This document shows, piece after piece, positions 1 through 54,606 of a stretch of DNA of 64,000 nucleotides; position 1 is the stretch's first letter; each line of letters begins with the position of its first letter. The notes under the pieces are model-generated. The model made no database searches and was not told the DNA's origin. It saw only the letters and a program-made list of their open reading frames with translations. Source of the DNA: an uncultured Sulfuricurvum sp. (GTDB taxonomy: Bacteria > Campylobacterota > Campylobacteria > Campylobacterales > Sulfurimonadaceae); the NCBI GenBank assembly GCA_903844635.1, contig CAIMUF010000038.1:62001-126000 (forward strand), given 5' to 3'. The translations under genes and the position numbers were made by a program.

Positions 1-469
1 CTCGTACCATTTGCCCCACTGCAACCACGCCCAAGTGGTGAGGGACGAAAGGGATCACTACTGCATCAGCAACTTCAAGTGCATTTTTGAGAAGGGAATC
101 AAACGTAGGAGGTGTGTCGATCACTACATAATCGAAAAACTCATGAATCATTTCATTGAAAAACCGGCTTCGTAACACTCCTCTTAAATCACCATTTTCG
201 TACACATCAAAAAATTCGGTTGCAGGAGAAAGTGTCAGTTGCTCAAATACGGTCGGAACGAAAGTTTCACTGAGAGTTTTACCAAAAAAAATCGAATGCA
301 CTCCATTATCAAGCGATCCCATACAGCCCACACCCATAGATGCATGCGCTTGTGTATCTAAATCAATGAGCAATACGGAACCTCGTTTAGCAAGCTCACA
401 TGCGAGATTAACAGCAGTGGTTGTTTTTGCCGAGCCACCTTTGCGATTACTGACTACAATGGTCTTCAT
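1..469 (-). CDS. ParA/MinD-family partitioning ATPase of the chemosensory operon (partial)
   Basis: Only the first 156 residues are visible; the C-terminus lies beyond the left edge. The sequence shows a deviant Walker A motif KGGSAKTT at residues 10-17, the DLDTQ motif at about 37-41 and a Walker B region ending IDTPP, all typical of ParA ATPases that dimerise on ATP and bind DNA non-specifically. The ATG overlaps the stop of the upstream CheW-CZB gene (ATGA), so translation is probably coupled. ParA homologues in chemotaxis operons (ParC of Vibrio, PpfA of Rhodobacter) place or segregate receptor arrays. The main receptor of this operon is soluble, so a PpfA-like role in splitting a cytoplasmic array is my inference. 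It is not the chromosomal Soj, because no parB or origin genes lie beside it in the visible part. Confidence 0.9.
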   Translation of the reverse strand, partial: MKTIVVSNRKGGSAKTTTAVNLACELAKRGSVLLIDLDTQAHASMGVGCMGSLDNGVHSIFFGKTLSETFVPTVFEQLTLSPATEFFDVYENGDLRGVLRSRFFNEMIHEFFDYVVIDTPPTFDSLLKNALEVADAVVIPFVPHHLGVVAVGQMVR

Positions 470-1248
470 GCCATCTCTTCATCGGGAAGAGTAACTGAAT
501 CAATAACCACTACGAGTGATTTTTTGTACTCGATAACTCCGCGCGTGCGTAAACATGCGCCTACTTTTACATTATGGGCATAAGGTTTTATATCTCCCTC
601 ATCCAATGCAATAATATCTCGGATTGCATCCACTTTGATTGCAAAAAAACCATCTCCGCTTCGATAAATGAGAAGTTTTTGTGTTTGAGAAGAAATTTCG
701 GTACTTTTTCGTACCATTTCACCCAAAAGGCGCATCGTGTCCACGAAAACACCATTAACAATCTCATTACGGTAGCATTCCAAGGTGGCTTCGGTATCAC
801 CCGTGCATTGCTGCAATAACTTTGCACCTGTTTCATGTAACTGCGCATGGACGGGTATCAGGGCACGAATGATAGCGAGCACCTCAGGATCGTGGGCTTG
901 ATACGAATAAATCCATTTACCTAGTCTGCACAAATGGGGGTCAAGGGCAAGCTTAAAAGAGACACCATCGCGTAATGACGTTTCCAGTGCTACTACCCAA
1001 TTTTGATGATCTTTTATTACCTGATTAAATAATTCCAACATCTGCTCTTCATGCGTTTGCAAATTGGTCATTTTTCGAAAATTAATCACCTTTGCCGTCA
1101 GGTTTTGATACGTCATCAATCCATCAATATAAGGATGGGCATTGGGCATAGGAGTCAGATGTGGAATTTGATCAATACGATCAATATAACTAACTTCTAG
1201 CGCATAATCTCTTTGCGCAATTGTAAAAATAATATAATCAGACGTCAT
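466..1248 (-). CDS. CheW coupling protein with an inserted CZB zinc-binding domain (copy 2)
   Basis: This is a 260-residue chimera. Residues 4-60 match the first half of CheW (YALEV, then PNAHPYIDGLM, then VINFRKM) and 190-255 match the second half (KLLIYR, FAIKVDAI, RTRGVIE, LVVVID). Between them lies a CZB domain with its four expected zinc ligands: H81 in DHQNW, C107 in CRLGKW, and H134 and H138 in HAQLH. CZB domains bind zinc through one Cys and three His and in TlpD and DgcZ respond to zinc or oxidants. The protein should link receptors to CheA while sensing the cytosol; the sensing role is inferred. A paralogue with the same layout lies upstream, separated by a STAS gene. The start is preceded by AAAGGA. 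The stop overlaps the parA start. Confidence 0.85.
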   Translation of the reverse strand: MTSDYIIFTIAQRDYALEVSYIDRIDQIPHLTPMPNAHPYIDGLMTYQNLTAKVINFRKMTNLQTHEEQMLELFNQVIKDHQNWVVALETSLRDGVSFKLALDPHLCRLGKWIYSYQAHDPEVLAIIRALIPVHAQLHETGAKLLQQCTGDTEATLECYRNEIVNGVFVDTMRLLGEMVRKSTEISSQTQKLLIYRSGDGFFAIKVDAIRDIIALDEGDIKPYAHNVKVGACLRTRGVIEYKKSLVVVIDSVTLPDEEMA

Positions 1249-1257
1249 TAAAATCCT

Positions 1258-1527
1258 TTACGCACAATGTACTTCGGTCACTTCAAAGCCTTCACATATT
1301 TTTTGATACAACTTCTCATACATTCCAAAGCGATATTGAGCTGCATACAATTTTTTATACGCCAAAACAAGCTGTAAAATTCCCAAGTGGACATCATCAC
1401 ACTCCGTAAAATCAAAAAGAATCGGTTCAGGAGAAGAGAGCTGCAAATAATCACGTAATGCCCCTATCTCATCTTCATACGTTACCCCGCTGAAAGTTAC
1501 GGTGTTATTTTCCATTGAAATAGACAT
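1258..1527 (-). CDS. single-domain STAS protein
   Basis: An 89-residue protein that is essentially one STAS domain. It has an N-terminal strand (NNTVTFSG), a helix (DEIGALRDYL), the core strand ILFDFTECDD where antagonists carry the regulatory Ser/Thr loop, and the helix GILQLVLAYKK. Thr35-Glu36 occupy roughly the place of the phosphorylatable Ser of SpoIIAA, but the loop reads ECDDVH, so phosphorylation is uncertain. STAS proteins are switch or adaptor modules; small STAS genes also occur in other chemotaxis operons. It sits exactly between the two CheW-CZB genes: its ATG overlaps the last base of the upstream stop (TAATG), which suggests coupled translation and a shared complex. It has no membrane segment. 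The partner is unknown. Confidence 0.7.
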   Translation of the reverse strand: MSISMENNTVTFSGVTYEDEIGALRDYLQLSSPEPILFDFTECDDVHLGILQLVLAYKKLYAAQYRFGMYEKLYQKICEGFEVTEVHCA

Positions 1528-2303
1528 TATGCACCCTCTTTTACCGGCATTGAAACCGATTTTATAACATTTACCAGTCGCTCACCCATCTCAATGACCC
1601 CTGACGTTTCTAAAAAATCTCCTAAATTGCTGCTTGAATCAACCGACTTAATCATCGAAGGTTCAATTTGAGCAATATCATCAATCCCATCTACCTTAAT
1701 TGCGAAAAAGCTCTCTCCAGCCTGGTAGATCAACAGTTTTTGCATGTGCCCTGAAATGGATTGAGACATTTCGCCCATTTTATGAATTTCTCCCAGTGTC
1801 GTTGAAAAAATCGACACAATCTCACGGCGCGCTTGATCCAGGGCCGCTGATGGATTAGTTTCACGAAGTGCTAATATTTCACGTCCGCGATCATGAAGTT
1901 TCGCATGGGTAGGACGAAGTACCTTCAAAATTGCCAATACATCCGCATCATGGGTACTGTAATTGTCCAACCATTTTCCAAGACGACAGGCATGAGGATC
2001 CGTAGTAAGAGCAAATCCGCTATTGTTCTCCATCGCTGCCATAAACGTCTCGACCCAAACTTGATGATCATTCCCAACACGTTGAAATAGATTATGTATT
2101 TCTTCTTCATGCGCCGTCATGGCTGTCATTTTACGAAAATTCACCACTTTTGTCACACGCTTCTCATAGGACATCATTCCATCAATAAAAGGATGTGCGT
2201 TAGGAATGGCTGTAACACTCGGCATCTGAATAATCCGTTCTACATTCGCGACATTGAGTGCATAAAAATTCGTTCCTACCGTAAAAACTATATAATCTTC
2301 CAT
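1527..2303 (-). CDS. CheW coupling protein with an inserted CZB zinc-binding domain (copy 1)
   Basis: A 258-residue paralogue of the gene at 466-1248 with the same split layout. The CheW N-half is at about 3-60 (FYALNV, PNAHPFIDGMM, VVNFRKM), the CZB domain at about 70-175, and the CheW C-half at about 188-250 (KLLIYQ, FFAIKVDGI, TSGVIEM, LVNVI). The zinc ligands are H80 (NDHQVW), C106 (CRLGKW), H133 and H137 (HAKLH). The two copies keep the N-half and the zinc site well but differ along the second CheW half, as if tuned to different receptors or partners. It lies 10 bp downstream of cheA and overlaps the STAS gene by one base. It should act at the receptor-CheA interface; redox or zinc control of coupling is inferred from CZB biology. 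Confidence 0.85.
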   Translation of the reverse strand: MEDYIVFTVGTNFYALNVANVERIIQMPSVTAIPNAHPFIDGMMSYEKRVTKVVNFRKMTAMTAHEEEIHNLFQRVGNDHQVWVETFMAAMENNSGFALTTDPHACRLGKWLDNYSTHDADVLAILKVLRPTHAKLHDRGREILALRETNPSAALDQARREIVSIFSTTLGEIHKMGEMSQSISGHMQKLLIYQAGESFFAIKVDGIDDIAQIEPSMIKSVDSSSNLGDFLETSGVIEMGERLVNVIKSVSMPVKEGA

Positions 2304-2313
2304 CTTTTATCCT

Positions 2314-5091
2314 TTAGCTTGCGTGCTGGTAATCAGTTTGAAGTGCGTGTGAAAGCTGTAACATCCCAAGCGGATCAATCGCCATGATAATTAGCCCGTT
2401 ACCTAACAATGCCGTACCGCTGAAAATTGGATGCTGTTCCATAATCCCCTCGAGCGGTTTTTGTACGACATCAATTTGCCCAATAAGCGCATTGACAACA
2501 ACAGCCAGTAAATTACCCTTGATATTGAGTACTACAACTGGAAGTGTTTTGCCGATCAATACTTTCTCGTCGAGCATTTGACGTGTAAACAACAGAGGAA
2601 TAACTTCTCCGCGCAAATAAATAAATGGCTCATTTTGTAAATATTCAATCTGCGATGACTCGATTTTAACGGTCTCAGAGACGCTGTCCATCGGGAATCC
2701 ATAGTGAACTCCGCTCATCGTCACATGAAGCAATGATGTTACAGCCAGAGATACTGGGATAGAGAGATAGATCGTCGTCCCTTGATTGGGAACGGTTTTG
2801 ATACGGATAGTGCCGCCAAATCCTTCGATTGATTTGCGTACCACATCCATACCTACGCCGCGTCCGCTGTACTCACTAATCGTCTCAGCCGTAGAGAGTC
2901 CAGGCAACATAACCAGAGCTGCTTTTTCATCATCGCTCATTGCATCGATTTGATCCAATGTCAAAAGCTCTTTTTCTAGTACTTTTTGAACAACACGATC
3001 AACATTGATACCCGCTCCGTCATCACGAATTTCGACGATAATTTTATCACTCTGAGGATAGGCATTAAGGGTAATTTGACCCTCAGCGCTTTTCCCTTTT
3101 TGGATACGTATTTCAGGAAGTTCGATTCCATGATCAAGAGAATTTCGCATAATATGAATCATAGGATCGGCAAGCATCTCGATCATATTTTTATCGAGTT
3201 TCGTTTCTCCTCCATCCATCATTAATGTGACTTTTTTATTAAGGTTTTTCGAAATGTCCCGTACCAGTTTTGGGTAACGGTCAAAAACGTAAGAAATCGG
3301 GAGCATGCGCATCGACATAATCAAATCTTGGAGCTGTTCGGTGAGGCGGTTAATAAAGGTGTATTTTTCCATTATCGCCCGTTTTGTCCCCTCTGGAGTC
3401 ATTGCATGTACGCCGTCTGCCAAATACGGTAAAGAGTTTTTAGCCACAAGAAGCTCACCCACTACATTCATCAAATTATCGATGGATTCCTGATCGACCT
3501 TCACGGTTTTACCAATAACCCCTTTTTTAGTTCCTGCGTTTTGAACGTCTGCTTCAATTTTTAAATCTTCGACAACAGCAGGTTTGATCACTACGGATGG
3601 CTTTTCTACTGCGGCAGTGATGATATTTACCGGGGCAGGAACGGTAATTTCTACCTCAGGAATCGTAAGTTCCAGGATACTCAAAATCTCTTCGTCTATC
3701 TCATTTAAACTTTCTGCTGGGGCATCAAAACAAACTTCTTCGCGAGACTCCAATCCTAACTCTTGACGCAACCATCTCATTACTTCATCAGATGAAGCAT
3801 CTTGACTTGGAAGTGTTTCTAAATGCTCACTCAGAGCACTTATCATCGCCTTGACTCGCTCAAGAGCACTGTCATCCTCTACACACTCAAGAGTTTGAAG
3901 TTGCTGAGTAAGAATAGCTTGCAGCCGTTGAAGCGCAACCTCATCCAGCGGTTCTTTTACTATTACTGTCGGCTGAGAAGAAGCTTCATCCACACTCTGC
4001 GCACACGATTCACTACTATACTCATAGGTATGCCCCTGCGGCAATTTGGCAAAAAAGGATTTCAACTCTTTTAAATCACGATCAGCTATACAACCAATAA
4101 CATCAAGCGCGCGATTGAGCTGTGCGCTTTGAATCGTATCTTTTCCAATAAGGGGTAAAGTATTGACGATGCGCTGAGAGATTTCGAGAGGATTGTTCGC
4201 ATCGATTTGCACAGCACACTCATGGCTTAGCTCTTTGAGAACATCCAACGTATGTCCACGCTCTCCCTCATCTACTCCCAGTAATGTCACAATATCCAAT
4301 GGCATAAATTCGAGCTCATCACTAAAGTTGAACAAGGCATCGCTAATCTCTTCATACGTAGCGTATACAAAAGCAACCATTGATAGTTTCAATAACAATC
4401 CATCCGGATCATCAAATCCGCTAAGTGCAGAAGTAGCCGCGCTGTTGCTCATGCACGAATGAACACCAAGCACTTTATCGGCAATAAGCGATAGCGTATA
4501 AACTGGATCATTTCCATACACCATGCACGATTCATCGATATCAAAAACGACAGCATACAGTTGCTCTCTCGAACACATCTCTTCATCAATATTCCCAAGA
4601 GCAAAGGGTATTTTTTGACCAAAAGAACGTAGAAATGGCATCGGAAGATTCACAATCCGATTAATATCTCTTACGCTTTTAAAAGGACATGTCCATACGT
4701 GCACTTCAATGGTTTTACCCATAAGTCCGCTAAGCTCATTTGCAATTTCGTCGATTCGTTCTTCATCCGCGCTAACAATATCCCCACTCTCTTCTGCCGC
4801 TTCAATGAGATTCACCACTTCATCAAATGCGTTATACAGGGATTCAACCATTCTCTCTTGAAAATCGAGTTTACCCGATCGAAGCATATCCAACAAATCT
4901 TCCGCGTGATGAGTGATTCGCTTAACGGCTTCAAATCCGACAATTCCAGAACCACCTTTGAGCGTATGAGCGGCACGAAAAACCGAGTTGAGCAGTTCAG
5001 GATCATCCCCGCCGATTTTGTCAATGTTTTGATCGATGAAAGCTAGATTTTCTCTGGCTTCAAGTAAAAATTGTTCGAGTAGCGCATCCAT
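2314..5091 (-). CDS. cheA: CheA chemotaxis histidine kinase (long form)
   Basis: 925 residues, against about 650-800 for most CheA proteins. An HPt domain lies at about 1-105 with phospho-accepting H42 in AAHTLKGGSG. The P3 dimerisation helices start near 530 (VDQESIDNLMNVVGELL). The P4 ATPase spans about 601-780 with N-box MRNSLDHG at 648-655, DDGAGI at 690-695 and GRGVGM at 743-748. A CheW-like P5 domain fills about 785-920. The stretch from 110 to 525 is unusually long and shows no clear P2 motif; it contains a low-complexity, Glu/Pro-rich part before P3. There is no C-terminal receiver domain, unlike the CheAY of Helicobacter and Campylobacter. It autophosphorylates under receptor control and feeds the two CheY-like regulators encoded just upstream. 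Confidence 0.95.
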   Translation of the reverse strand: MDALLEQFLLEARENLAFIDQNIDKIGGDDPELLNSVFRAAHTLKGGSGIVGFEAVKRITHHAEDLLDMLRSGKLDFQERMVESLYNAFDEVVNLIEAAEESGDIVSADEERIDEIANELSGLMGKTIEVHVWTCPFKSVRDINRIVNLPMPFLRSFGQKIPFALGNIDEEMCSREQLYAVVFDIDESCMVYGNDPVYTLSLIADKVLGVHSCMSNSAATSALSGFDDPDGLLLKLSMVAFVYATYEEISDALFNFSDELEFMPLDIVTLLGVDEGERGHTLDVLKELSHECAVQIDANNPLEISQRIVNTLPLIGKDTIQSAQLNRALDVIGCIADRDLKELKSFFAKLPQGHTYEYSSESCAQSVDEASSQPTVIVKEPLDEVALQRLQAILTQQLQTLECVEDDSALERVKAMISALSEHLETLPSQDASSDEVMRWLRQELGLESREEVCFDAPAESLNEIDEEILSILELTIPEVEITVPAPVNIITAAVEKPSVVIKPAVVEDLKIEADVQNAGTKKGVIGKTVKVDQESIDNLMNVVGELLVAKNSLPYLADGVHAMTPEGTKRAIMEKYTFINRLTEQLQDLIMSMRMLPISYVFDRYPKLVRDISKNLNKKVTLMMDGGETKLDKNMIEMLADPMIHIMRNSLDHGIELPEIRIQKGKSAEGQITLNAYPQSDKIIVEIRDDGAGINVDRVVQKVLEKELLTLDQIDAMSDDEKAALVMLPGLSTAETISEYSGRGVGMDVVRKSIEGFGGTIRIKTVPNQGTTIYLSIPVSLAVTSLLHVTMSGVHYGFPMDSVSETVKIESSQIEYLQNEPFIYLRGEVIPLLFTRQMLDEKVLIGKTLPVVVLNIKGNLLAVVVNALIGQIDVVQKPLEGIMEQHPIFSGTALLGNGLIIMAIDPLGMLQLSHALQTDYQHAS

Positions 5092-5101
5092 TGTGTGTCC
5101 C

Positions 5102-5473
5102 TTAGAGTGTGGCTTTGATCAATAACTGGAGATACCCTTTGAGGGCATCGGGCTTAATCGGTTTGGTCTCAAAAAGACTGGCCCCTACTTTGAATGCTTC
5201 GAGTTTATCAGTAGCAGCTTCTTGCGTTGTAATCATGATGACAGGTGTTAGCTTATGAGCAGGCTGCTTTCGCAGTTCACTCACAAAAGAGTATCCGTCC
5301 ATTACTGGCATATTGACATCAACGAGGTAAAGGTCTACTTCATTATCCAACGTCTTTTCGAGCGCTTCCATCCCATTTTCGGCTTCAAGAAAATTCACCC
5401 CTAAGTCCCGCAAGATTGAGCCGTGATAACTTCGTACTGTTTTTGAATCATCGACTACCATAACTGTTGCCAT
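5102..5473 (-). CDS. CheY-like single-domain response regulator
   Basis: A 123-residue receiver domain and nothing else. Acidic pocket D8-D9 (VDDS), phospho-acceptor D52 (VDVNMPVMDG), switch Thr in MITTQE and conserved Lys in ETKPIKP. It is one of two stand-alone receivers in the operon, directly upstream of cheA (10 bp gap), so CheA is the likely phosphodonor. KP-I-KP replaces the usual KPF, so its output surface differs from the regulator at 5877-6248. One of the two is probably the flagellar-motor CheY or another output, and the other a phosphate sink or an array regulator; the sequence does not say which. Confidence 0.9.
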   Translation of the reverse strand: MATVMVVDDSKTVRSYHGSILRDLGVNFLEAENGMEALEKTLDNEVDLYLVDVNMPVMDGYSFVSELRKQPAHKLTPVIMITTQEAATDKLEAFKVGASLFETKPIKPDALKGYLQLLIKATL

Positions 5474-5483
5474 CTCATATCTC

Positions 5484-5873
5484 CTAAAAAAACTCTATAC
5501 CGTCATCATCTTGATGCTGTATTTTTCCGCCAAAAGCTGAATGCTTCTCCCGCGCCCGATCGAGCGCTGATGTTAACTTGTCGTGCATTTTTTCTAAATT
5601 TTCTGCTGCTAGTGAATCATCTTCACTAAATGCACGCGTAAAATACTGCAAATGTTTTTGCGCATTTTCGATCGCTTCGATGGTTGCCCCTAACTGCTGA
5701 GCAATGATGTCTTGATACTGCATCACCTCTAACGTTTCATCATCGAGAATCAAACCTTGTTTTTCGATAAAATGAACCACTTGAAGCTGGGCTTTCTGGG
5801 TCATTTCTATCGTCTCACGCTCTACGGATTTAATGTGTTCCAACAATCCATCCAGTGTGTGTAAAAACTGCAT
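5484..5873 (-). CDS. CheZ-like CheY-phosphate phosphatase (remote homologue)
   Basis: About 129 mostly helical residues. The segment MQYQDIIAQQL resembles the catalytic helix of CheZ, where an Asp/Gln pair acts on CheY phosphate, and the acidic C-terminus ends DDGIEFF, like the tethered CheY-binding peptide that ends CheZ. The middle is rich in heptad-like leucines, fitting a long hairpin. It is shorter than enterobacterial CheZ (about 214), as are the remote CheZ proteins of Epsilonproteobacteria. The gene lies between two cheY-like genes, which supports a dephosphorylation role. The start is ambiguous: GTG at 5876 directly follows the upstream stop, and ATG at 5873 is the next codon; neither has a strong ribosome site. 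The function is inferred from motif and context. Confidence 0.6.
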   Translation of the reverse strand: MQFLHTLDGLLEHIKSVERETIEMTQKAQLQVVHFIEKQGLILDDETLEVMQYQDIIAQQLGATIEAIENAQKHLQYFTRAFSEDDSLAAENLEKMHDKLTSALDRAREKHSAFGGKIQHQDDDGIEFF

Positions 5874-5876
5874 CAC

Positions 5877-6248
5877 TTACGCCAAACGTAATACTCGTGC
5901 AATCGCTTGCTTGAGCTGTGCAGGATTAAAAGGTTTGACAATCCACCCTGTCAACCCCAGTGCTTTGCCTTGTTGCTTTAACTCATCACGGGTTTCAGTC
6001 GTGAGCATTAATACCGGGGTGCGTGCGGTTGCAGGGTGAGCACGAACCCCTTGCAAAAATTCAAATCCGTTCATTACCGGCATATTCATATCGGTAATAA
6101 TCAAATCAGGAGTCATCCCCCCTTGTATTTCGCGAAGTGCATCCGGAGCATTCAAATATTGTTTAACCGTAATGGGCATACTGTCGGTCACCATCCGAGT
6201 GGAAGCAAGAGCGGTTTCACTGTCGTCTACAAATATAACTAATGGCAT
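5877..6248 (-). CDS. cheY: CheY-type chemotaxis response regulator
   Basis: A 123-residue receiver domain with D8-D9 (VDDSE), phospho-acceptor D53 (TDMNMPVMNG), switch Thr in MLTTET and K104 in VKPFNP, so all residues needed for phosphotransfer and switching are present. VKPF makes it the more CheY-like of the two lone receivers in this operon. It lies 11 bp downstream of cheR and its stop abuts the CheZ-like gene. By family it takes phosphate from CheA and binds FliM at the motor or another output. The genome surely has another cheY elsewhere, so whether this one drives swimming bias or an alternative output cannot be told from the window. Confidence 0.92.
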   Translation of the reverse strand: MPLVIFVDDSETALASTRMVTDSMPITVKQYLNAPDALREIQGGMTPDLIITDMNMPVMNGFEFLQGVRAHPATARTPVLMLTTETRDELKQQGKALGLTGWIVKPFNPAQLKQAIARVLRLA

Positions 6249-6259
6249 AATTTTTCCTT

Positions 6260-7090
6260 TTACTTTTGATAAATGAGTGTTGAGTCGATTTTTTTAGCCT
6301 TAAAGACAGAAGTAATACGACTCATATACTCTGCATGTCCTAACAATACATAACCACCGACGTTGACCATATCATAAAAAGTCATTACTACCTCTTTACG
6401 ACTTGCATCATCAAAATAAATCAGCATGTTTCGTGAAAAGATAACATCAAATTTTCCCAATTGACGCATTTGCGTTTTATCAAAGATATTGGCTACTTTG
6501 AAATCAACCGTTCCAACTAAATCATCGATCAAATCAAATCCTAGTGTCCGTTTTTTAAAATACTTAGCCAATGCTCCAGCTGGAATTGCATGAATTGAAC
6601 GCTCGCTGTATTTCCCTAATTTTGCTTTGGCAATAACCGTACTGTCAATATCGATTCCCACAACTTCAATATCTCTTTCTTCAATCAGGCGCGCTTCTTC
6701 AAGCAAATGCAAAATGACTGAATACGGTTCCTCTCCCGTCGAACATGGGGCACAAAGAATCCGAATCGGTGCTGTTCGAGATTTTACGGCATGAAGTTCT
6801 GGCAAAATACGATCAACTAAAACTTCAAACTGCTCTTTTTCCCGATAAAAATAGGTTTCGTTTACCGTCACTGCATTCATCAGTTCTTGAAACTCTGTCC
6901 CATCCTTATCTTCAAATCGCAAGGTATAAAAATACTTTCGAAACGAGTCTGCATTGATCACCTTTGCCCGAGCGTCGATGTATTTTGCTAATTTGTCAAA
7001 ATGCTTATCGACTTCCAAAAAAATTCCCGTTTTGCGGTAAATGTAATCGGTCATTTTATGGAAGCTTTCGTCGTTTAAAAGATAGGCCAT
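6260..7090 (-). CDS. cheR: CheR chemoreceptor methyltransferase
   Basis: 276 residues, standard for CheR. The N-terminal helical domain spans about 1-80, followed by the SAM-dependent methyltransferase domain with NETYFYRE, the SAM-binding loop CSTGEEPYS and the late motif FSRNMLIYFD. It methylates glutamates on chemoreceptors using S-adenosylmethionine and opposes CheB, which is encoded two genes upstream. There is no C-terminal NWETF-binding β-subdomain signature that I can name. The soluble receptor of the operon has many Glu/Gln pairs in its helices, but I could not assign methylation sites. It follows the HEAT gene by 3 bp. Confidence 0.95.
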   Translation of the reverse strand: MAYLLNDESFHKMTDYIYRKTGIFLEVDKHFDKLAKYIDARAKVINADSFRKYFYTLRFEDKDGTEFQELMNAVTVNETYFYREKEQFEVLVDRILPELHAVKSRTAPIRILCAPCSTGEEPYSVILHLLEEARLIEERDIEVVGIDIDSTVIAKAKLGKYSERSIHAIPAGALAKYFKKRTLGFDLIDDLVGTVDFKVANIFDKTQMRQLGKFDVIFSRNMLIYFDDASRKEVVMTFYDMVNVGGYVLLGHAEYMSRITSVFKAKKIDSTLIYQK

Positions 7091-7093
7091 ACT

Positions 7094-7720
7094 TTACCCC
7101 CGAATACTGCGGATAGCATTGTCAACCGCGAAATCAACATATGCATCGTTAAATCGCCCTTTGACGCTGTTCAAAAGCTCAATGTCGCGAACTTCTCCGA
7201 TTTCTGCCATATAATCCACCGCCGTCATTGCTACATTAATATCCGTTTCATTCTCCAAAAGTTCGACAAGCATTTCACGAGATTCAGCAAAATTCACATC
7301 ACCTAAAACATTGATGGCAAAAATACGTAAATCGCGATCATTCCCTATAAGAAATTTAACAATGTAATATTTGATTGCATCCCCATAACTTTGCAGTGTT
7401 GTAATCCCCAAATTACGAATATACGCATTACGAACTTTTAACAAATCCATAATTGCTTCGATCGGGGCACGCTTAGAATCCATCGCGGTGAGCAACGATG
7501 CGATATAGCTTGCCATATCTTTATGAATATGAGGGTCATCCACCAATAAATGAACCAGCTTTGCTCCACCGCCCTCAAAAGAGACAATTTTTTCTGCCGC
7601 ATACGCTTGAGATTCAAAATTTCCCTCATTGGAATGATAATAGGCCATTGCTTCCGGGAGTGTCTGTAATGGAGGGAATTCCTCAATTATAGGTGCTGTA
7701 TGTTTTTTTATTAATGCCAT
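7094..7720 (-). CDS. HEAT-repeat scaffold protein of the chemosensory operon
   Basis: 208 residues, all helical, with repeated two-helix units of about 31 residues: KDMASYIASLLTAMDS, RNAYIRNLGITTLQSYG, DRDLRIFAINVLGDVN and DINVAMTAVDYMAEIG. These fit HEAT repeats of the PBS-lyase kind. HEAT proteins are protein-binding scaffolds with no catalysis. The first five residues, MALIK, followed by a basic residue, match the first residues of the soluble receptor at 10162-12048 (MALIRR); the first 13 bases of the two genes are identical. A shared N-terminal peptide in one operon suggests a common binding partner, possibly the ParA ATPase. It sits between cheB and cheR, so it may act in adaptation or array assembly; its function is not established. 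Confidence 0.7.
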   Translation of the reverse strand: MALIKKHTAPIIEEFPPLQTLPEAMAYYHSNEGNFESQAYAAEKIVSFEGGGAKLVHLLVDDPHIHKDMASYIASLLTAMDSKRAPIEAIMDLLKVRNAYIRNLGITTLQSYGDAIKYYIVKFLIGNDRDLRIFAINVLGDVNFAESREMLVELLENETDINVAMTAVDYMAEIGEVRDIELLNSVKGRFNDAYVDFAVDNAIRSIRG

Positions 7721-7730
7721 ATAATCTCCT

Positions 7731-8789
7731 TTAATGTAATGTTTGCAGTGCGCGTACTATTTTTGGAAACGGTAACTGTTGGGACACGCCACCACGATCA
7801 AATGCCTCTTTTGGCATACCATACACCGTTGCTGTCTCTTCCGATTCTCCGATAGTAAATCCACCTGCATTTTTGATTTTCACCATCCCGCTGGCTCCAT
7901 CATCCCCAATACCTGTCAACAAAACAGCCGTAATTTGATCGCCTGAAAAGATCTTAGCCGCACTCTCAAACATCTCATCCACACTGGGTTGAAAAAAACG
8001 GTTGTTTTTATTTTTCTCTTCCCGTATTACAAATTTTCCCGTTACTTTTTTCGCAAAATGCATGTGCACGCCACCGCGCGCCAAATAAATCACTCCGCTT
8101 GAAAGCTCCATATGATCTTTACACTCGATAACCGGTAACGTGCTGACTTTATCTAATCGAGTCGCAAAAGCTGCCGTAAATTGCTCCGGCATGTGCTGAA
8201 CGATGCACGCCGCGTAGGGAAATCCTCTTGGCAGCGCTTTGCATATCTGCTCAATGAGTCCAGGACCTCCGGTAGAAGCACCTATTAATAACACTTTTGA
8301 TACCTCTACAAAAGCAGGAGTTTGCACCCCACTGCTTTCACGACGAACAGGAGCTCGCTCTCGTTGTACAGGCCGTCTGACGATCGTCTTTAACCGACGA
8401 GGCGGAATACGGCTAAGAGACGTTACTTTTGCAAGAATGTCTTCTCGATTTTCCGATTTTCCCACATTCATGGTTCCAGGTTTGGCAATATAATCAACCG
8501 CACCCGCATCCAATGCCTCCATCGTAATGCCAGCACTCTCAGTGGTGAGAGAGCTGATCATCAAAATAGGAGTAGGTCGCGTCTCCATAATACGTTTTAC
8601 TGCGGTGAGACCATCCATCACAGGCATATTTATATCCATGGTGATCACATCGTATTGAGTTTCTATCGCTTTTTGTACCGCTTCCTGCCCGTTGCGTGCA
8701 GTTTCAATTTCAAAATCCAATGTCCCTATAATCTCACTAAGCTGCTTACGAACCAAAGCGGAATCATCGGCTATCAATACTTTTTTCAC
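7731..8789 (-). CDS. cheB: CheB receptor methylesterase/glutamine deamidase
   Basis: 352 residues with a receiver domain at about 1-118 (D8-D9, phospho-acceptor D52 in TMDINMPVMDG, K103), an Arg-rich linker at about 129-160, and the CheB esterase domain with catalytic S172 in GASTGGPG, H199 in QHMPEQF and D296 in TGIGDDGASGM. It removes methyl groups from receptors when phosphorylated by CheA, resetting sensitivity. The ATG overlaps the stop of the three-domain CheW gene (ATGA), and the HEAT gene follows 10 bp later. The very basic linker is longer than a minimal one, but the protein length is normal for the family. Confidence 0.95.
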   Translation of the reverse strand: MKKVLIADDSALVRKQLSEIIGTLDFEIETARNGQEAVQKAIETQYDVITMDINMPVMDGLTAVKRIMETRPTPILMISSLTTESAGITMEALDAGAVDYIAKPGTMNVGKSENREDILAKVTSLSRIPPRRLKTIVRRPVQRERAPVRRESSGVQTPAFVEVSKVLLIGASTGGPGLIEQICKALPRGFPYAACIVQHMPEQFTAAFATRLDKVSTLPVIECKDHMELSSGVIYLARGGVHMHFAKKVTGKFVIREEKNKNNRFFQPSVDEMFESAAKIFSGDQITAVLLTGIGDDGASGMVKIKNAGGFTIGESEETATVYGMPKEAFDRGGVSQQLPFPKIVRALQTLH

Positions 8790-10156
8790 GATTTATCCCC
8801 TCGCAAGAGTTGAGATACATTAGGATTAAATAACATCACCAACCGTTCTCCTTCATTTAAATGAAGAACATGCGAAAATATTCCCTCTTCCCCATCATCT
8901 TTGCGCATCAAATCATGAGGTATTGCCATAACATCACTCACGTAGTTCACAAAAAAACCAATCCGAGAACCTTGTGCATGACAAATAATAATCTTTTGAT
9001 CCTCTCGATGTGATGGTTCAATGCCTAACCGCTTGTGCAATGAGCCAATCGTAACAATCTGCCCGCGTATGTTGATAATCCCATCAATCATCTCATGAGA
9101 ATCTGCGACGGGAGTCACGGGTGTCATATCAATAATCTCAGCTACTTCTTCGATCTCAAACGCATATTCTTCACTTCCAAGCTGAAAAATCACAACTTCT
9201 ATCGATGCTTCTTGCGTCGTATCGGTAAGTATCGCTTCACTGTTTACAATAATCTCATCATTACGAGACATAATCGACTCGATGAGTTCCTCGCCAATGA
9301 GAGAAATGAGATGGTCTTCAAATTGAATAACCCCTGCTATTTGGTTGCTGTTGTCACCACTGATATCAATGTCTGACTGAGAAAATTCATGAATATCAAC
9401 AATCTCATCAATCACAAGTCCCAATGTTCTACCCTGACGCTGAACAATCATAATTCTATTTTTATCCCCAAGAATGGGTTGATAATGGAAATACAAGCGT
9501 AAATCAGCCACAACGATGAGCTCTTCACGCAGCGACATCATCCCTTGTATCTCTGGATTAGCTCCTGCAATGGTTGTGATAGCAACATCTGCATTTAAAA
9601 TCTCTCGAAGATTATCAATCAGCAATGCGTATTGCACCCCTCCCATCTTAAATACAAGATAACGCTCATGCTCATTGGACAGCATAGCATGCTTAATGGC
9701 TATTGTTTTGTCACTGACATTACGAGGATTAACCGAAACTTTTTGAACTCGCTTCATAGCATGGTCTAAATCAATGACTTGAATCAATTCATCCTCGTGA
9801 TGAAGGATCGCTGCAATTATCTCTTTATTCGTTTCCAGATACTCAATTTTTTTAGGGTCAACCGTAACGGAAACACTAACCTCATCGACAAGTAAACACA
9901 AGGCACTCCAAGGAGCATTCAGCGTAATAACACGATTTTTAGGCTCAATTCCAGGACAGGATGGAAACCCCAAAAGAAGATTGATATCAATGGCCGTAGC
10001 AATGTTGCCGCCCAACGCACACAACCCTCGAACCTCGTCAGGGCTAAGCGCCAAAGGGGTAATATCAGGAACACGAAGAATTTGACCAATAAAAGAGGTG
10101 GGAATACCAAAAGCAATCTCACCATGTCTGAATATCAAAACTTCTTCGAATAACAT
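8786..10156 (-). CDS. three-domain CheW scaffold protein
   Basis: 456 residues made of three CheW-type domains in tandem, at about 1-140, 163-300 and 318-455. Each shows the family pattern of a hydrophobic first strand (FGIPTSFIGQIL; YALLIDNLREIL; YAFEIEEVAEII), a central turn (EVRGLCALGG; EIQGMMSLREE; MIDGIINIRGQ) and a second barrel with a VDEV/IDEI-like strand. The third domain keeps the canonical GIINIRGQ and is most CheW-like. Multi-CheW proteins can bridge several receptors and kinases. With the two CheW-CZB proteins the operon encodes five CheW modules and no plain one-domain CheW. It lies 5 bp downstream of the receptor gene and overlaps cheB by 4 bp. Confidence 0.85.
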   Translation of the reverse strand: MLFEEVLIFRHGEIAFGIPTSFIGQILRVPDITPLALSPDEVRGLCALGGNIATAIDINLLLGFPSCPGIEPKNRVITLNAPWSALCLLVDEVSVSVTVDPKKIEYLETNKEIIAAILHHEDELIQVIDLDHAMKRVQKVSVNPRNVSDKTIAIKHAMLSNEHERYLVFKMGGVQYALLIDNLREILNADVAITTIAGANPEIQGMMSLREELIVVADLRLYFHYQPILGDKNRIMIVQRQGRTLGLVIDEIVDIHEFSQSDIDISGDNSNQIAGVIQFEDHLISLIGEELIESIMSRNDEIIVNSEAILTDTTQEASIEVVIFQLGSEEYAFEIEEVAEIIDMTPVTPVADSHEMIDGIINIRGQIVTIGSLHKRLGIEPSHREDQKIIICHAQGSRIGFFVNYVSDVMAIPHDLMRKDDGEEGIFSHVLHLNEGERLVMLFNPNVSQLLRGDKS

Positions 10157-10161
10157 GAAAC

Positions 10162-12048
10162 TTATCCTTGTTGAAGTTCATCTGCCATAACAGCCAACTC
10201 TTCAACCCCCTCAGAGATGTGACTCACTGTTTCGATAATCAATTCGCTGGCTTTTCGTGATTCTTGTGCATTACGCGCTGAGAGTTCAACCGCTTTTTGA
10301 ATTTCACTGATTCCTATGAGTCCTTGATTAAGCCCTTCGATATTTTGATCATTAATGGATTTTAGTCCCGTAAAACGATCCAACAAATCAATCAGCATCG
10401 TTGTGATCTTATCAATCTCATGAATCAATGCCGTAATTTGCTCTTTTTCACCTTCTTGATTTACAAGAAGTTTTAACCACTCCGTGCGTACGGTATCGAT
10501 TTCAGCGTTCATTGATTCGATTGTATCGTTGATTTTTTCCGTATTGGATTCAGAATCTTTGGCAAGATTACGGATATCGGCACTAACGACTGCAAATCCT
10601 TTTCCAAAGTCTCCTGCCCGTGCCGCTTCAATAGAACCACTGATAGCGAGCATGTTGAGTTGAATGATACTGTTGCTGATACTTCCTACTGTTTTATCAA
10701 CGTTACGAGTCTCTTTTACGATGACATCAAGCTCACTGCTTGCGCTTCCACCCTCATTCATAGAAGCAGTGAAATCATTGCTAATACCGATCATTTGCCC
10801 TTTTACATCTGCGAACGATACTTTCAGTAAATCAAAATTTCGACGTGCGATTTCGATAAGTTTAGAAATATCTCTTGATGCACTGACACCACTTTCAAAT
10901 AACTCTTTATTCGCAATGGCACTTTGATTAGTAGATTGAGATGCTGCTTCGATTTGGTTAAGTCCTGAAGTTACTTCTTTAAGAGAATTTTGAATGTCTT
11001 CCATCGATGAGCTGATTGCATCTGCAGATGCTGCAATCTCCTCTGCTGATTTCATCGTATCCGTTGAGTATTTGAGTTCTTCGGAAAGATTGTTAAGTTC
11101 TTTGATGTCTTCTTCAGTCTGAACAAGTGAATTACTTTGCATTTCGATGCTGTTAAGGGTTTTTTCGACTGAACGCGCGATTTCACTTGAAGCATCAGCG
11201 ATGTCTTTAGAACCGTCATTAATGAGAGTAATCGAGTGGCTTAGGCTTTGGGTATAACCGCTCATGCTGCGTGCCGCTTCGACGGAATAGACGGCGATTT
11301 TCGTAAGTTCTTCCATTTTGAAGCTCAACGCACTGCCACGTCCGCCGGTTTGTTCGATAATATTAGTCGTCGTATTGATGCTTTTGATGATTCCATCAAT
11401 GCTTTCTTGAATTTTATTCACAAGACGTGAGATAAAATCAGCATTTTTTTCGGATTCTCCTGCAAGTGCACGAGTCTCATCCGCAACCACCGCAAACCCT
11501 TTACCATGCTCTTTGGCACGACTGGCTTCGATAGCGGCATTGAGGGCTAACAGATTAGTTTGATCAGCAATTTTTGCAATAAACCCAACCGCTTCACCGA
11601 TATTTTCAGAGGATAATTTCAGCTCTTCAGATTTTTTAGAAGAGGTTTTAGCAACATTGACCGCTTTTGCCATTCGCTCCACAGAAGTATTAATCGTCCC
11701 CACCGAACTCATAATGTTTTCACCCGCCGCCAATGTTGAACTGATGACGGTATCAATACTGCTCGTCATGCGCCCGATATTGGAACTGATAGAGCGAACA
11801 TTTTTAAGTGCTTGCTCACTTGCGCCACTGTTTTCTTCTGCCGCTGTTGCGATTTGCTCCATGGAACTTTTGAGTTGTTCGATAGCACTAACGCTCTCTT
11901 GTGCATTGTCCAAAATCGTAGTAGCGACGCCTGCAATACTCTCAGAAATCTGCTGTTGTTTTGCCAATGTACGCTGACGTCGTTTGTCAGGTCCTACACT
12001 GCCACCTGCAGCCACTGGTGAACTCTCTGATCGTCTTATTAATGCCAT
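10162..12048 (-). CDS. soluble chemoreceptor with two tandem MCP signalling hairpins
   Basis: 628 residues with no transmembrane segment, signal peptide or recognisable ligand domain. Residues 1-30 are basic (MALIRR, DKRRQRTLAK). Hairpin tip 1 at about 159-196 is close to consensus ([19 protein letters not shown]). Tip 2 at about 456-496 is a second MCP tip with changes at the kinase-contact face (QLNMLAISGSIEAARAG, GKGFAVVSADIRNLA). Each tip is flanked by long heptad helices, so the protein is either two fused receptors or one with a duplicated, altered signalling unit. The adjacent PAS protein probably supplies the sensor. It should sit in a cytoplasmic array with CheA and the CheW proteins. 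AAGGAGA precedes the start. Confidence 0.85.
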   Translation of the reverse strand: MALIRRSESSPVAAGGSVGPDKRRQRTLAKQQQISESIAGVATTILDNAQESVSAIEQLKSSMEQIATAAEENSGASEQALKNVRSISSNIGRMTSSIDTVISSTLAAGENIMSSVGTINTSVERMAKAVNVAKTSSKKSEELKLSSENIGEAVGFIAKIADQTNLLALNAAIEASRAKEHGKGFAVVADETRALAGESEKNADFISRLVNKIQESIDGIIKSINTTTNIIEQTGGRGSALSFKMEELTKIAVYSVEAARSMSGYTQSLSHSITLINDGSKDIADASSEIARSVEKTLNSIEMQSNSLVQTEEDIKELNNLSEELKYSTDTMKSAEEIAASADAISSSMEDIQNSLKEVTSGLNQIEAASQSTNQSAIANKELFESGVSASRDISKLIEIARRNFDLLKVSFADVKGQMIGISNDFTASMNEGGSASSELDVIVKETRNVDKTVGSISNSIIQLNMLAISGSIEAARAGDFGKGFAVVSADIRNLAKDSESNTEKINDTIESMNAEIDTVRTEWLKLLVNQEGEKEQITALIHEIDKITTMLIDLLDRFTGLKSINDQNIEGLNQGLIGISEIQKAVELSARNAQESRKASELIIETVSHISEGVEELAVMADELQQG

Positions 12049-12158: not shown

Positions 12159-12587
12159 TTAGTCTAATGTCGCGTAAAGCGCTTCTGCTTTTTTAATGTC
12201 GTCACGTGAAGGTTTAATACGGATAGAAACATATTTAACACTTCCATTTTTATCCGTTGAACGCAAAACGGTAGCATATACCCAGTAAAAGCCTCCACCT
12301 TTGCGAGCATTTTTAACAAATCCAGTCCAAAAACCTTTGGCTTGAACATCATCCCACAATGATTTGAATGCGGCGCGAGGCATGTCAGAATGACGGACAA
12401 CGTTATGAGCTTGCCCAACCAGGTCTGCTGCTTTCCATCCTGCAACTTTTGCAAATGAATCACTCACATACGTGATAATTCCTTTTTCATCGGTTTCTGA
12501 CAATAAATACAAATCGTCGTACAGCACCTCACCGTCATCTAAAAATGTTAGCCCTTCGATCTTGGCCATATCATCCGTTTTTGCCAT
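12159..12587 (-). CDS. Aer-type PAS domain protein, probable sensor partner of the soluble receptor
   Basis: 142 residues forming one PAS domain at about 25-130. It carries ITYVSDSFAKVAGW, then HNVVRHSDMP, and GFWTGFVKNARKGGGFYWV, the hallmarks of Aer/CetB-like PAS domains that bind FAD and sense redox or energy state. Cofactor binding is inferred from that resemblance. It has no receptor or kinase domain, so the signal must pass to another protein; the next gene is a receptor with no sensor domain. This resembles the CetA/CetB split aerotaxis pair of Campylobacter, except that the receptor here is soluble. It is the first gene of the operon. Confidence 0.85.
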   Translation of the reverse strand: MAKTDDMAKIEGLTFLDDGEVLYDDLYLLSETDEKGIITYVSDSFAKVAGWKAADLVGQAHNVVRHSDMPRAAFKSLWDDVQAKGFWTGFVKNARKGGGFYWVYATVLRSTDKNGSVKYVSIRIKPSRDDIKKAEALYATLD

Positions 12588-53484: not shown

Positions 53485-54606
53485 TTATTTTCCTTTTCTT
53501 TTTTTCTGTTCTTCATCTATTAGTGCACTTAAGAGATTAAAGACTTCTCGACTTGCTGATTCTGCATCTTTAAAATAGCTCATGACATTCTTCGAATTTT
53601 CTCCGCATGTTCCTGCTTTAACACAATGAATGGCATCATGAATACGGTCGTGCACCACTTTGTGCGGAGCTTCAAGCTTAGAAAAACTTGGGACCGATCC
53701 AAATACTTCTTTTCCAAGTCCATGCTCATACCATTTACCCAAACGGCATCCATGATGATCCGCAAATTCATCCTCCACGTTATTTAAAAATACGGTTTTG
53801 TATCCTCTGGATTTAAAGAGAAGATGATCCAGTTTTACAAGTACAATGAAGGTTGAGTACAATACATCTCGTGAGCAGTTGTCTATGTCCATCGTACGAT
53901 GATTTAACTCAGATAGTGAAGATTGAAAACGATTAAGTTTGTTGCTGGAGTCAGAAGACATTGTCTCCATGGAGCTAGAGCGTTCATCAATCTCTGTTGC
54001 ATTTTGCTTAAGACTTTGAACGCTCATTTCCACTTCTTGCGTTGCTTTTTGCGTTCGTTCTGCGAGCTTTCGTACCTCATCGGCAACTACCGCGAATCCG
54101 CGTCCGTGTTCACCTGCTCGTGCGGCTTCAATCGCAGCATTGAGTGCTAGCAAGTTAGTTTGATCTGAGATGTCTTTGATGAGGCTAATTACGGTACTAA
54201 TCGATTCTACGCTGCCACTAAGCTGGGAAGCTGAATTATAATTATTAGAGATATTATTTGCTAGTTCCTGTTGTGTATGAAGAAGGTTTTTAATCTCACC
54301 ATTGATCTCGACAGAAGACATACGATTGAGACGATTTAACTCAGAAATCTCACCCAATTCTTCAACATTAACTCCAAGGTCTTTTTGAAGTACCGCGAGA
54401 TCCGTTTCAGAACCAGCAATAAGATTTTCTGTGAGCTCATGAATAAGGGTATACATTACCTTATCATGACGGGCTGTAGTGTTTTGCTCATTCAGTCGTT
54501 TATTTTCTTCACTCATTTTTGCCATAGATTCTTCAATCACTACCAGTTTACTTTTTAATATTTCATGTTCACGCACTTGATCTAAATATCTTTTCTTATA
54601 AAACAT
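53485..54606 (-). CDS. TlpD-like soluble chemoreceptor with C-terminal CZB domain
   Basis: 373 residues with no membrane segment. An N-terminal coiled coil (10-60), an MCP signalling domain with a perfect tip [20 protein letters not shown] (147-166), and a C-terminal CZB domain: H261 (KLDHLL), C287 (CRLGKWY), H315 and H319 (HKVVH). This is the layout of Helicobacter TlpD, which responds to oxidants such as hypochlorite through the zinc-Cys. The [23 protein letters not shown]-type region is consensus, so it should signal through normal CheW. It is monocistronic, away from the operon with the CheW-CZB genes. Confidence 0.92.

Follow-up and report, generated by a model that had tools for sequence, protein, structure and literature searches.

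Two neighbouring genes of an uncultured Sulfuricurvum sp. encode CheW proteins, here called A and B, each with a CZB domain set between the two CheW half-barrels, and both genes belong to an operon that is assigned to chemosensory class F9. The explanation that we favour, at slightly less than even chances, is that A and B are dedicated couplers of this F9 system which carry an optional input module for zinc or oxidants. The CheW-CZB architecture itself is already known; what is new is its setting in an F9 operon and the evolutionary pattern of CZB loss. The stretch of DNA analysed, called the window in the following, comprises 64,000 nucleotides of contig CAIMUF010000038.1 (assembly GCA_903844635.1), and loci used for comparison are designated by L numbers. 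The nearest named contigs belong to Sulfuricurvum, and the identity of B is 96% in L017 and 91% in L018. Papers given with a PMC number are, unless stated otherwise, cited from excerpts.

Domain structure and predicted fold of A and B

The two proteins and their parts are encoded in the window as follows:

466-1248, minus strand: CheW-CZB protein A, 260 amino acids (open reading frame; Pfam CheW and CZB; AlphaFold2 model with CheW and CZB folds, pLDDT 93.5, pTM 0.86)
1054-1248, minus strand: first CheW half of A, residues 1-65, with Arg24/Gln48 at the positions of E. coli Glu38/Arg62
682-1053, minus strand: inserted CZB of A, residues 66-189, ligands His81, Cys107, His134 and His138
469-681, minus strand: second CheW half of A, residues 190-260 (profile search and model)
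1527-2303, minus strand: CheW-CZB protein B, 258 amino acids (open reading frame; Pfam CheW and CZB; AlphaFold2 model, pLDDT 93.8, pTM 0.86)
2112-2303, minus strand: first CheW half of B, residues 1-64, with Arg23/Glu47 at the positions of E. coli Glu38/Arg62
1743-2111, minus strand: inserted CZB of B, residues 65-187, ligands His80, Cys106, His133 and His137
1530-1742, minus strand: second CheW half of B, residues 188-258 (alignment and model)

Pfam finds both domains in each protein, with whole-protein scores that exceed the curated cut-offs of both families: CheW is matched in two stretches (E 2.8e-16 in A, 5.8e-17 in B), and CZB at residues 81-144 of A (E 8.9e-11) and 80-144 of B (E 2e-11). 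Most of the CheW profile score comes from the first half of the proteins; the second half of A by itself (profile positions 53-130) reaches 21.7 bits, which is under the cut-off, and the profile search output holds no separate second-half CheW row for B. By alignment, one Cys and three His are retained in the CZB of both A and B, as the preliminary description had reported, and zinc binding is predicted from this full set of ligands. A plasmid search with B returned a single CheW match, which covered 26% of the query.

In both AlphaFold2 models, five strands are followed by helices and by five further strands, and the two five-stranded half-barrels of a CheW fold are present. The two halves of B jointly match one solved CheW chain, 2ch4_W (Z 16.9, 135 residues, 2.3 Å), and the same holds for the halves of A and chain 6s1k_C (Z 16.6, 136 residues, 2.5 Å). 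The insert (residues 65-182 of B, 66-184 of A) matches the CZB domain 3t9o of DgcZ with a Z of 13.2 in each case; unrelated helical bundles score a near-equal Z in the same structure-match lists, so it is chiefly by Pfam match and ligands that the insert is identified as a CZB. The pLDDT stays high at the junctions, with 96 (B) and 95 (A) for residues 61-70 and 95 (B) and 94 (A) for residues 181-190. Pfam, models and structure matches thus agree on the earlier proposal that the CZB is set between the CheW half-barrels, and the structure prediction that had been suggested as a check yields, for A and for B, a single predicted CheW barrel with the helical CZB outside it. That the insertion is an annotation artefact or the product of two fused genes was ruled out by CZB-less orthologues at the same place of the operon, by which the CZB appears as a clean cassette.

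An operon of class F9

The remaining genes of the operon are:

2-469, minus strand: ParA-like ATPase (AAA_31), cut by the window edge; full-length orthologue L070:13753-14493
1258-1527, minus strand: small conserved ORF between A and B, weakly STAS-like, 89 amino acids; orthologue in 24 of 24 F9 loci
2314-5091, minus strand: CheA kinase (Hpt, dimerisation, HATPase and CheW; Pfam)
5102-5473, minus strand: CheY-like receiver (Pfam)
5484-5876, minus strand: small conserved protein, CheZ-like by a motif read by eye only; orthologues in most complete loci
5877-6248, minus strand: second CheY-like receiver (Pfam)
6260-7090, minus strand: CheR methyltransferase (Pfam)
7094-7720, minus strand: HEAT-repeat protein (Pfam HEAT_2)
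7731-8789, minus strand: CheB, receiver and methylesterase (Pfam CheB_methylest, E 3.3e-56, and Response_reg)
8786-10156, minus strand: triple CheW protein (CheW3) with three CheW stretches, F9 signature
10162-12048, minus strand: DosM-type receptor with two signalling tips, F9 signature (MCPsignal in three stretches; two tip sequences)
12159-12587, minus strand: PAS-domain protein heading the conserved order (domain search and locus comparison)

The window encodes a DosM-type receptor with two tandem signalling domains as well as a triple CheW protein, both of which are signatures of class F9 (PMC9321776), and it is by these genes that the operon is assigned to the class. F9 arrays of V. cholerae are cytoplasmic and double-layered (PMC7534058). 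Sensory domains are missing from 98% of DosM homologues (PMC9321776), so that a further input to F9 systems is to be expected; in the DosM-type receptor of the window, families other than MCPsignal all stayed under their own cut-offs. The second tip of DosM, which is unlike the first, reads QLNMLAISGS in every F9 locus read, and DosM relatives beside CheW-CZB proteins of the E/R type have QTNSLAVSGS (L092) and QTTMLAVSGS (L099).

The gene order PAS-DosM-CheW3-CheB-HEAT-CheR-CheY-small-CheY-CheA-B-small-(A)-ParA is kept in most of 24 related loci, several of which are truncated where the contig or the stretch ends. In L089, B and the small ORF have traded places, PAS and DosM are placed after ParA in L090 and L091, and a match to the small CheZ-like protein was not found in L091. 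In L080 (9252-12004), CheA is spread over two overlapping ORFs, which is either real or a sequencing error. In the F9 loci, the gene of the ParA-like ATPase comes after those of A, B and the small ORF; its product might serve to position an array in the cytoplasm. The protein encoded at 5484-5876 gave no Pfam match above cut-off and no NCBIfam match; its QDxxxQQ motif, as read by eye, is one that we take to resemble the CheZ active site. The small ORF at 1258-1527 is a third gene within 466-2303 that is absent from the preliminary description. STAS_2 is matched by two of 18 orthologues of this ORF (best E 0.0052), the family search with the window ORF itself gave no match, and a PDB search with its profile gave none either. 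A figure legend in PMC9239204 lists a lone STAS gene among the gene-order abbreviations for classes F3, F7, F8, F9 and F14, and the term CZB has 0 occurrences in that paper.

It had also been suggested that A and B would let zinc or oxidants act on every receptor at once. The genome contains six CheA-sized open frames (669-934 amino acids) with a CheW domain, plus several further CheW loci, and A and B belong to a single F9 operon; control of all receptors was therefore dismissed. Besides A and B, the genome has 14 CZB matches, one of them under the cut-off, and a separate soluble receptor with a C-terminal CZB is encoded in the window at 53485-54606.

Distribution of the coupler and repeated loss of the zinc site

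The comparison set for CheW-CZB proteins was drawn from Campylobacterota and centred on the window's own groups. At E 1e-15, the CheW-CZB profile matches 17 of 41 genomes of the genus, nine with full-length CZB-bearing proteins (own genome counted) and eight with CZB-less ones; it matches 17 of 398 sampled genomes of the order and, at E 1e-25, 11 of 397 in the phylum sample. The HEAT gene of the operon is present in 20 of 396 genomes of the order, and nine further loci with this gene were examined (L114-L122). A CZB-less coupler with K/E at the Glu38/Arg62 positions is found in an F9 operon of another family (L114:13299-13739); a coupler between CheA and the small ORF was not found in L116, L118 and L119, nor a recognisable coupler in L121, while L115 is cut inside the coupler gene and L117, L120 and L122 end before the coupler place. 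CheW-CZB genes with an E/K pair also occur on four stretches (L094, L095, L096, L097) from which the che operon is absent except for a distant CheY, and in L094 the gene adjoins an ORF that is globin-like by eye.

Twenty-five F9 loci, the window included, could be sorted by the zinc state of B. The ligand set HCHH is intact in 11 (window, L070-L074, L076, L087-L089, L093), four have a CZB with lost ligands (L077 LSHY, L078 YAQI, L090 HCQY, L091 YCFY), and in ten the CZB is absent (L079-L086, L100, L101). Close homologues without the Cys/His set had been named in advance as evidence against the zinc reading. Some of these relatives are of this kind, so that zinc sensing is no constant feature of the coupler, while both copies in the window keep their ligands. 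In L098, which lies outside the 25 loci, Ile takes the first ligand column and a His stands one residue on, by which the zinc site may be shifted.

On a locus tree of the 25 loci (CheA, CheR, HEAT and CheB), CZB presence changes at least three times and zinc state at least six times; in a tree with DosM and more outgroups, the minima are four and seven, both being quick trees in which some forks are below 80. CZB-less L082 clusters with L074 among intact relatives, which indicates a loss, and the window and L071 share 98% identity in the tree columns. The deepest direction of gain or loss is unsure owing to the long branches of L092, L099, L114, L116, L118 and L119 in the order-wide tree. With at least six changes of zinc state in 25 loci, the cassette is not essential to the system, and its repeated disabling or deletion in relatives points to an optional sensor of one internal array rather than to a master control.

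A is present in 11 of the 25 loci, zinc-intact in five (window, L070-L073) and CZB-less in six. B is intact in the same five loci and either CZB-less (five) or ligand-dead (L077) in the other six; the zinc state of A thus equals that of B at every locus with both genes, and CZB presence alone agrees in ten of the 11. This match suggests a shared role of A and B more than the two set points that had been proposed for the diverged copies, although tree position reduces it to about two independent co-losses and makes the concordance suggestive only. A single group of all 12 A-type rows was not rejected in a clade test (p 0.489). A tree of CZB domains, which asked whether the CZB was captured from a local receptor, had weak support; eight of 16 CZB places of the genome entered it as extra loci, in which three receptor CZBs were found by profile and two were kept.

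CZB conservation is below CheW conservation in 77 of 78 pairs of B proteins, intact ones included. For intact pairs, the ratio of CZB to CheW identity has a median of 0.88 if both proteins come from one of the two genera and 0.69 if they come from different ones; pairs that include a ligand-dead protein have medians of 0.60 and 0.58, with ranges that overlap those of the intact pairs, and this lower ratio suggests relaxed constraint.

The Glu38/Arg62 pair

In CheW of E. coli, a bridge between Glu38 and Arg62 is said to align the receptor and kinase sites, the pair is nearly absolute in class F7, and the R62A variant keeps partner binding with impaired chemotaxis (PMC3828127). Arg23/Glu47 in B and Arg24/Gln48 in A take its place, so that the E. 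coli-type pair, which is typical of F7 and not defining for all CheWs, occurs in neither protein. The Glu38 position is not universal, since Met takes it in CheW of T. maritima. Forty-five CheW rows of the coupler family, which are related and hence not 45 independent observations, comprise R/E (25), R/Q (11), E/K (4), E/R (3), R/N (1) and K/E (1); the triple-CheW fragment L086:1-396 was excluded from this count. Opposite charges are found in 33 of the rows and a like-charged pair in none, and one A-type row (L073) is R/E. Both R/E and R/Q occur with and without CZB, so that the replacement of the pair is independent of the CZB. Elsewhere in the genome, the CheW first halves that were read (L009-L013) have E/R, and the triple CheW of the window keeps E/R in domains 2 and 3, not in domain 1.

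Relation to known proteins

Fusion of CheW to a sensor-like domain is shared by A, B and the CheWS proteins, which are presumably end-to-end fusions and not insertions. CheWS of spirochetes joins CheW to a CheR-like domain, is named CheW-CheRlike and thus differs from A and B in its partner domain (PMC10653840). The CZB domains of DgcZ and TlpD and those of A and B have the same fold (3t9o) and the same Cys and three His ligands. In TlpD, the CZB is C-terminal. The CZB of DgcZ is N-terminal (residues 1-128, PMC8262984), whereas that of A and B is inserted and held at both ends.

As the preliminary description had thought possible, CheW-CZB proteins were known to domain surveys as a named architecture (Perkins et al. 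2021, PMC8262984; Muok et al. 2023, PMC10653840), which makes up 1.4% of CZB sequences and is most abundant in Clostridia (PMC8262984). The published proteins resemble A and B in that CheW and CZB are combined in one soluble protein; the excerpts of the two papers give neither the site of the CZB within CheW nor a tested function, and they do not mention the F9 context, the repeated loss or the charge swap. Position 2 of the CZB motif is poorly conserved or Ala in CheW-CZB proteins according to PMC8262984, whereas A and B have Arg at this position, which is variable among their relatives. In the available parts of open-licence papers, no study on the function of CheW-CZB proteins, or of CheW with the charges swapped, was found; a literature search on domain insertion in CheW gave no paper, CheW-CZB was not found in the excerpt of the CheO paper (PMC9665402), and the word zinc has 0 occurrences in PMC9321776.

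The F9 systems of V. cholerae (cluster I) and of Campylobacterota are like that of the window in having a DosM with two signalling domains and a triple CheW (PMC9321776, PMC7534058). The baseplate of the V. cholerae system, however, is named as CheA and triple CheW (PMC7534058), and the window differs by one or two extra single-CheW couplers with an inserted CZB.

A possible role of the inserted CZB

As couplers of a cytoplasmic F9-class array, A and B would join DosM, the triple CheW and CheA in the baseplate by virtue of their CheW fold, and the CZB would be an input cassette with both ends held in the connection between the CheW subdomains. Receptors bind the groove between these subdomains. 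Since the CZB ends are joined to both CheW halves in the models, a change in the CZB could move the halves: oxidation of the Cys or loss of zinc would loosen the CZB, as for DgcZ, the CheW halves would shift mutually, and receptor-to-kinase coupling would thereby be altered in one array. For DgcZ, oxidation of the Cys is described as favouring the release of zinc, and a local unfolding is reported as well (PMC8262984). In relatives, this operon occurs with a CZB that has lost its ligands or with no CZB at all, so the cassette is optional. For sulfur oxidisers that live freely, HOCl is improbable as a natural signal, and the zinc level or another oxidant may be the stimulus. Several points count against this explanation: the changes of zinc state, at least six in the 25 loci, show that the system can do without the cassette; the other CZB proteins of the genome could do the same sensing; the altered Arg62 position may weaken coupling by A and B, as R62A impairs chemotaxis of E. 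coli (PMC3828127); and the CZB is less conserved than the CheW parts.

Instead of sensing, the CZB might act as a structural dimerisation domain or spacer that links adjacent couplers, either A to B or A to A, zinc merely stabilising it. This is unlikely: it would agree with the simulation of the DgcZ CZB as a dimer from the crystal structure (PMC8262984), with the helical domain that four B orthologues kept after ligand loss and with the equal zinc state of A and B at all 11 loci; however, the whole domain is missing from ten of 25 B genes, and the relaxed constraint suggested by the lower, if overlapping, CZB-to-CheW ratios of ligand-dead pairs counts against it. About as improbable is a decaying relict, useful in an ancestor and now lost with little consequence, to which the three or more changes in CZB presence, the six or more in zinc state and the weaker conservation of the CZB in nearly all B pairs would correspond; against it, all four ligands are kept in 11 of 25 B and five of 11 A genes, and the state of A parallels that of B wherever A exists.

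The altered charge pair leads to another explanation, in which A and B would fill or cap the baseplate as CheW variants of weak coupling; with the altered pair, binding would be kept and less signal transferred, and the CZB would tune occupancy. The Glu/Arg pair is indeed absent in 42 of 45 rows, R/E and R/Q occurring with and without CZB, and R62A CheW binds its partners yet impairs E. coli chemotaxis (PMC3828127); the prevalence of opposite charges and the lack of like charges argue for a preserved bridge, however, and the Met of T. maritima shows that the Glu38 position is not universal; we consider this explanation quite unlikely. A double layer with two chemically different coupler species, the triple CheW with E/R in domains 2 and 3 and the charge-swapped CheW (with or without CZB), perhaps matched to the two DosM tips, would give unlike baseplates of which only one has a removable zinc or oxidant input; we regard this as very improbable.

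If A and B are dedicated F9 couplers with an optional zinc or oxidant module, they bear on a question of wider interest: little is understood of the input that F9 arrays receive, their receptor DosM is usually without a sensor, and a coupler into which a zinc domain is plugged makes a concrete candidate for such an input. The related genomes provide a matched series of intact, ligand-dead and deleted CZB domains in similar operons, by which the role of the domain is testable with natural variants. Furthermore, the swapped Glu38/Arg62 pair offers a natural test of the bridge, on which simulation and NMR work has been done with CheW of E. coli.
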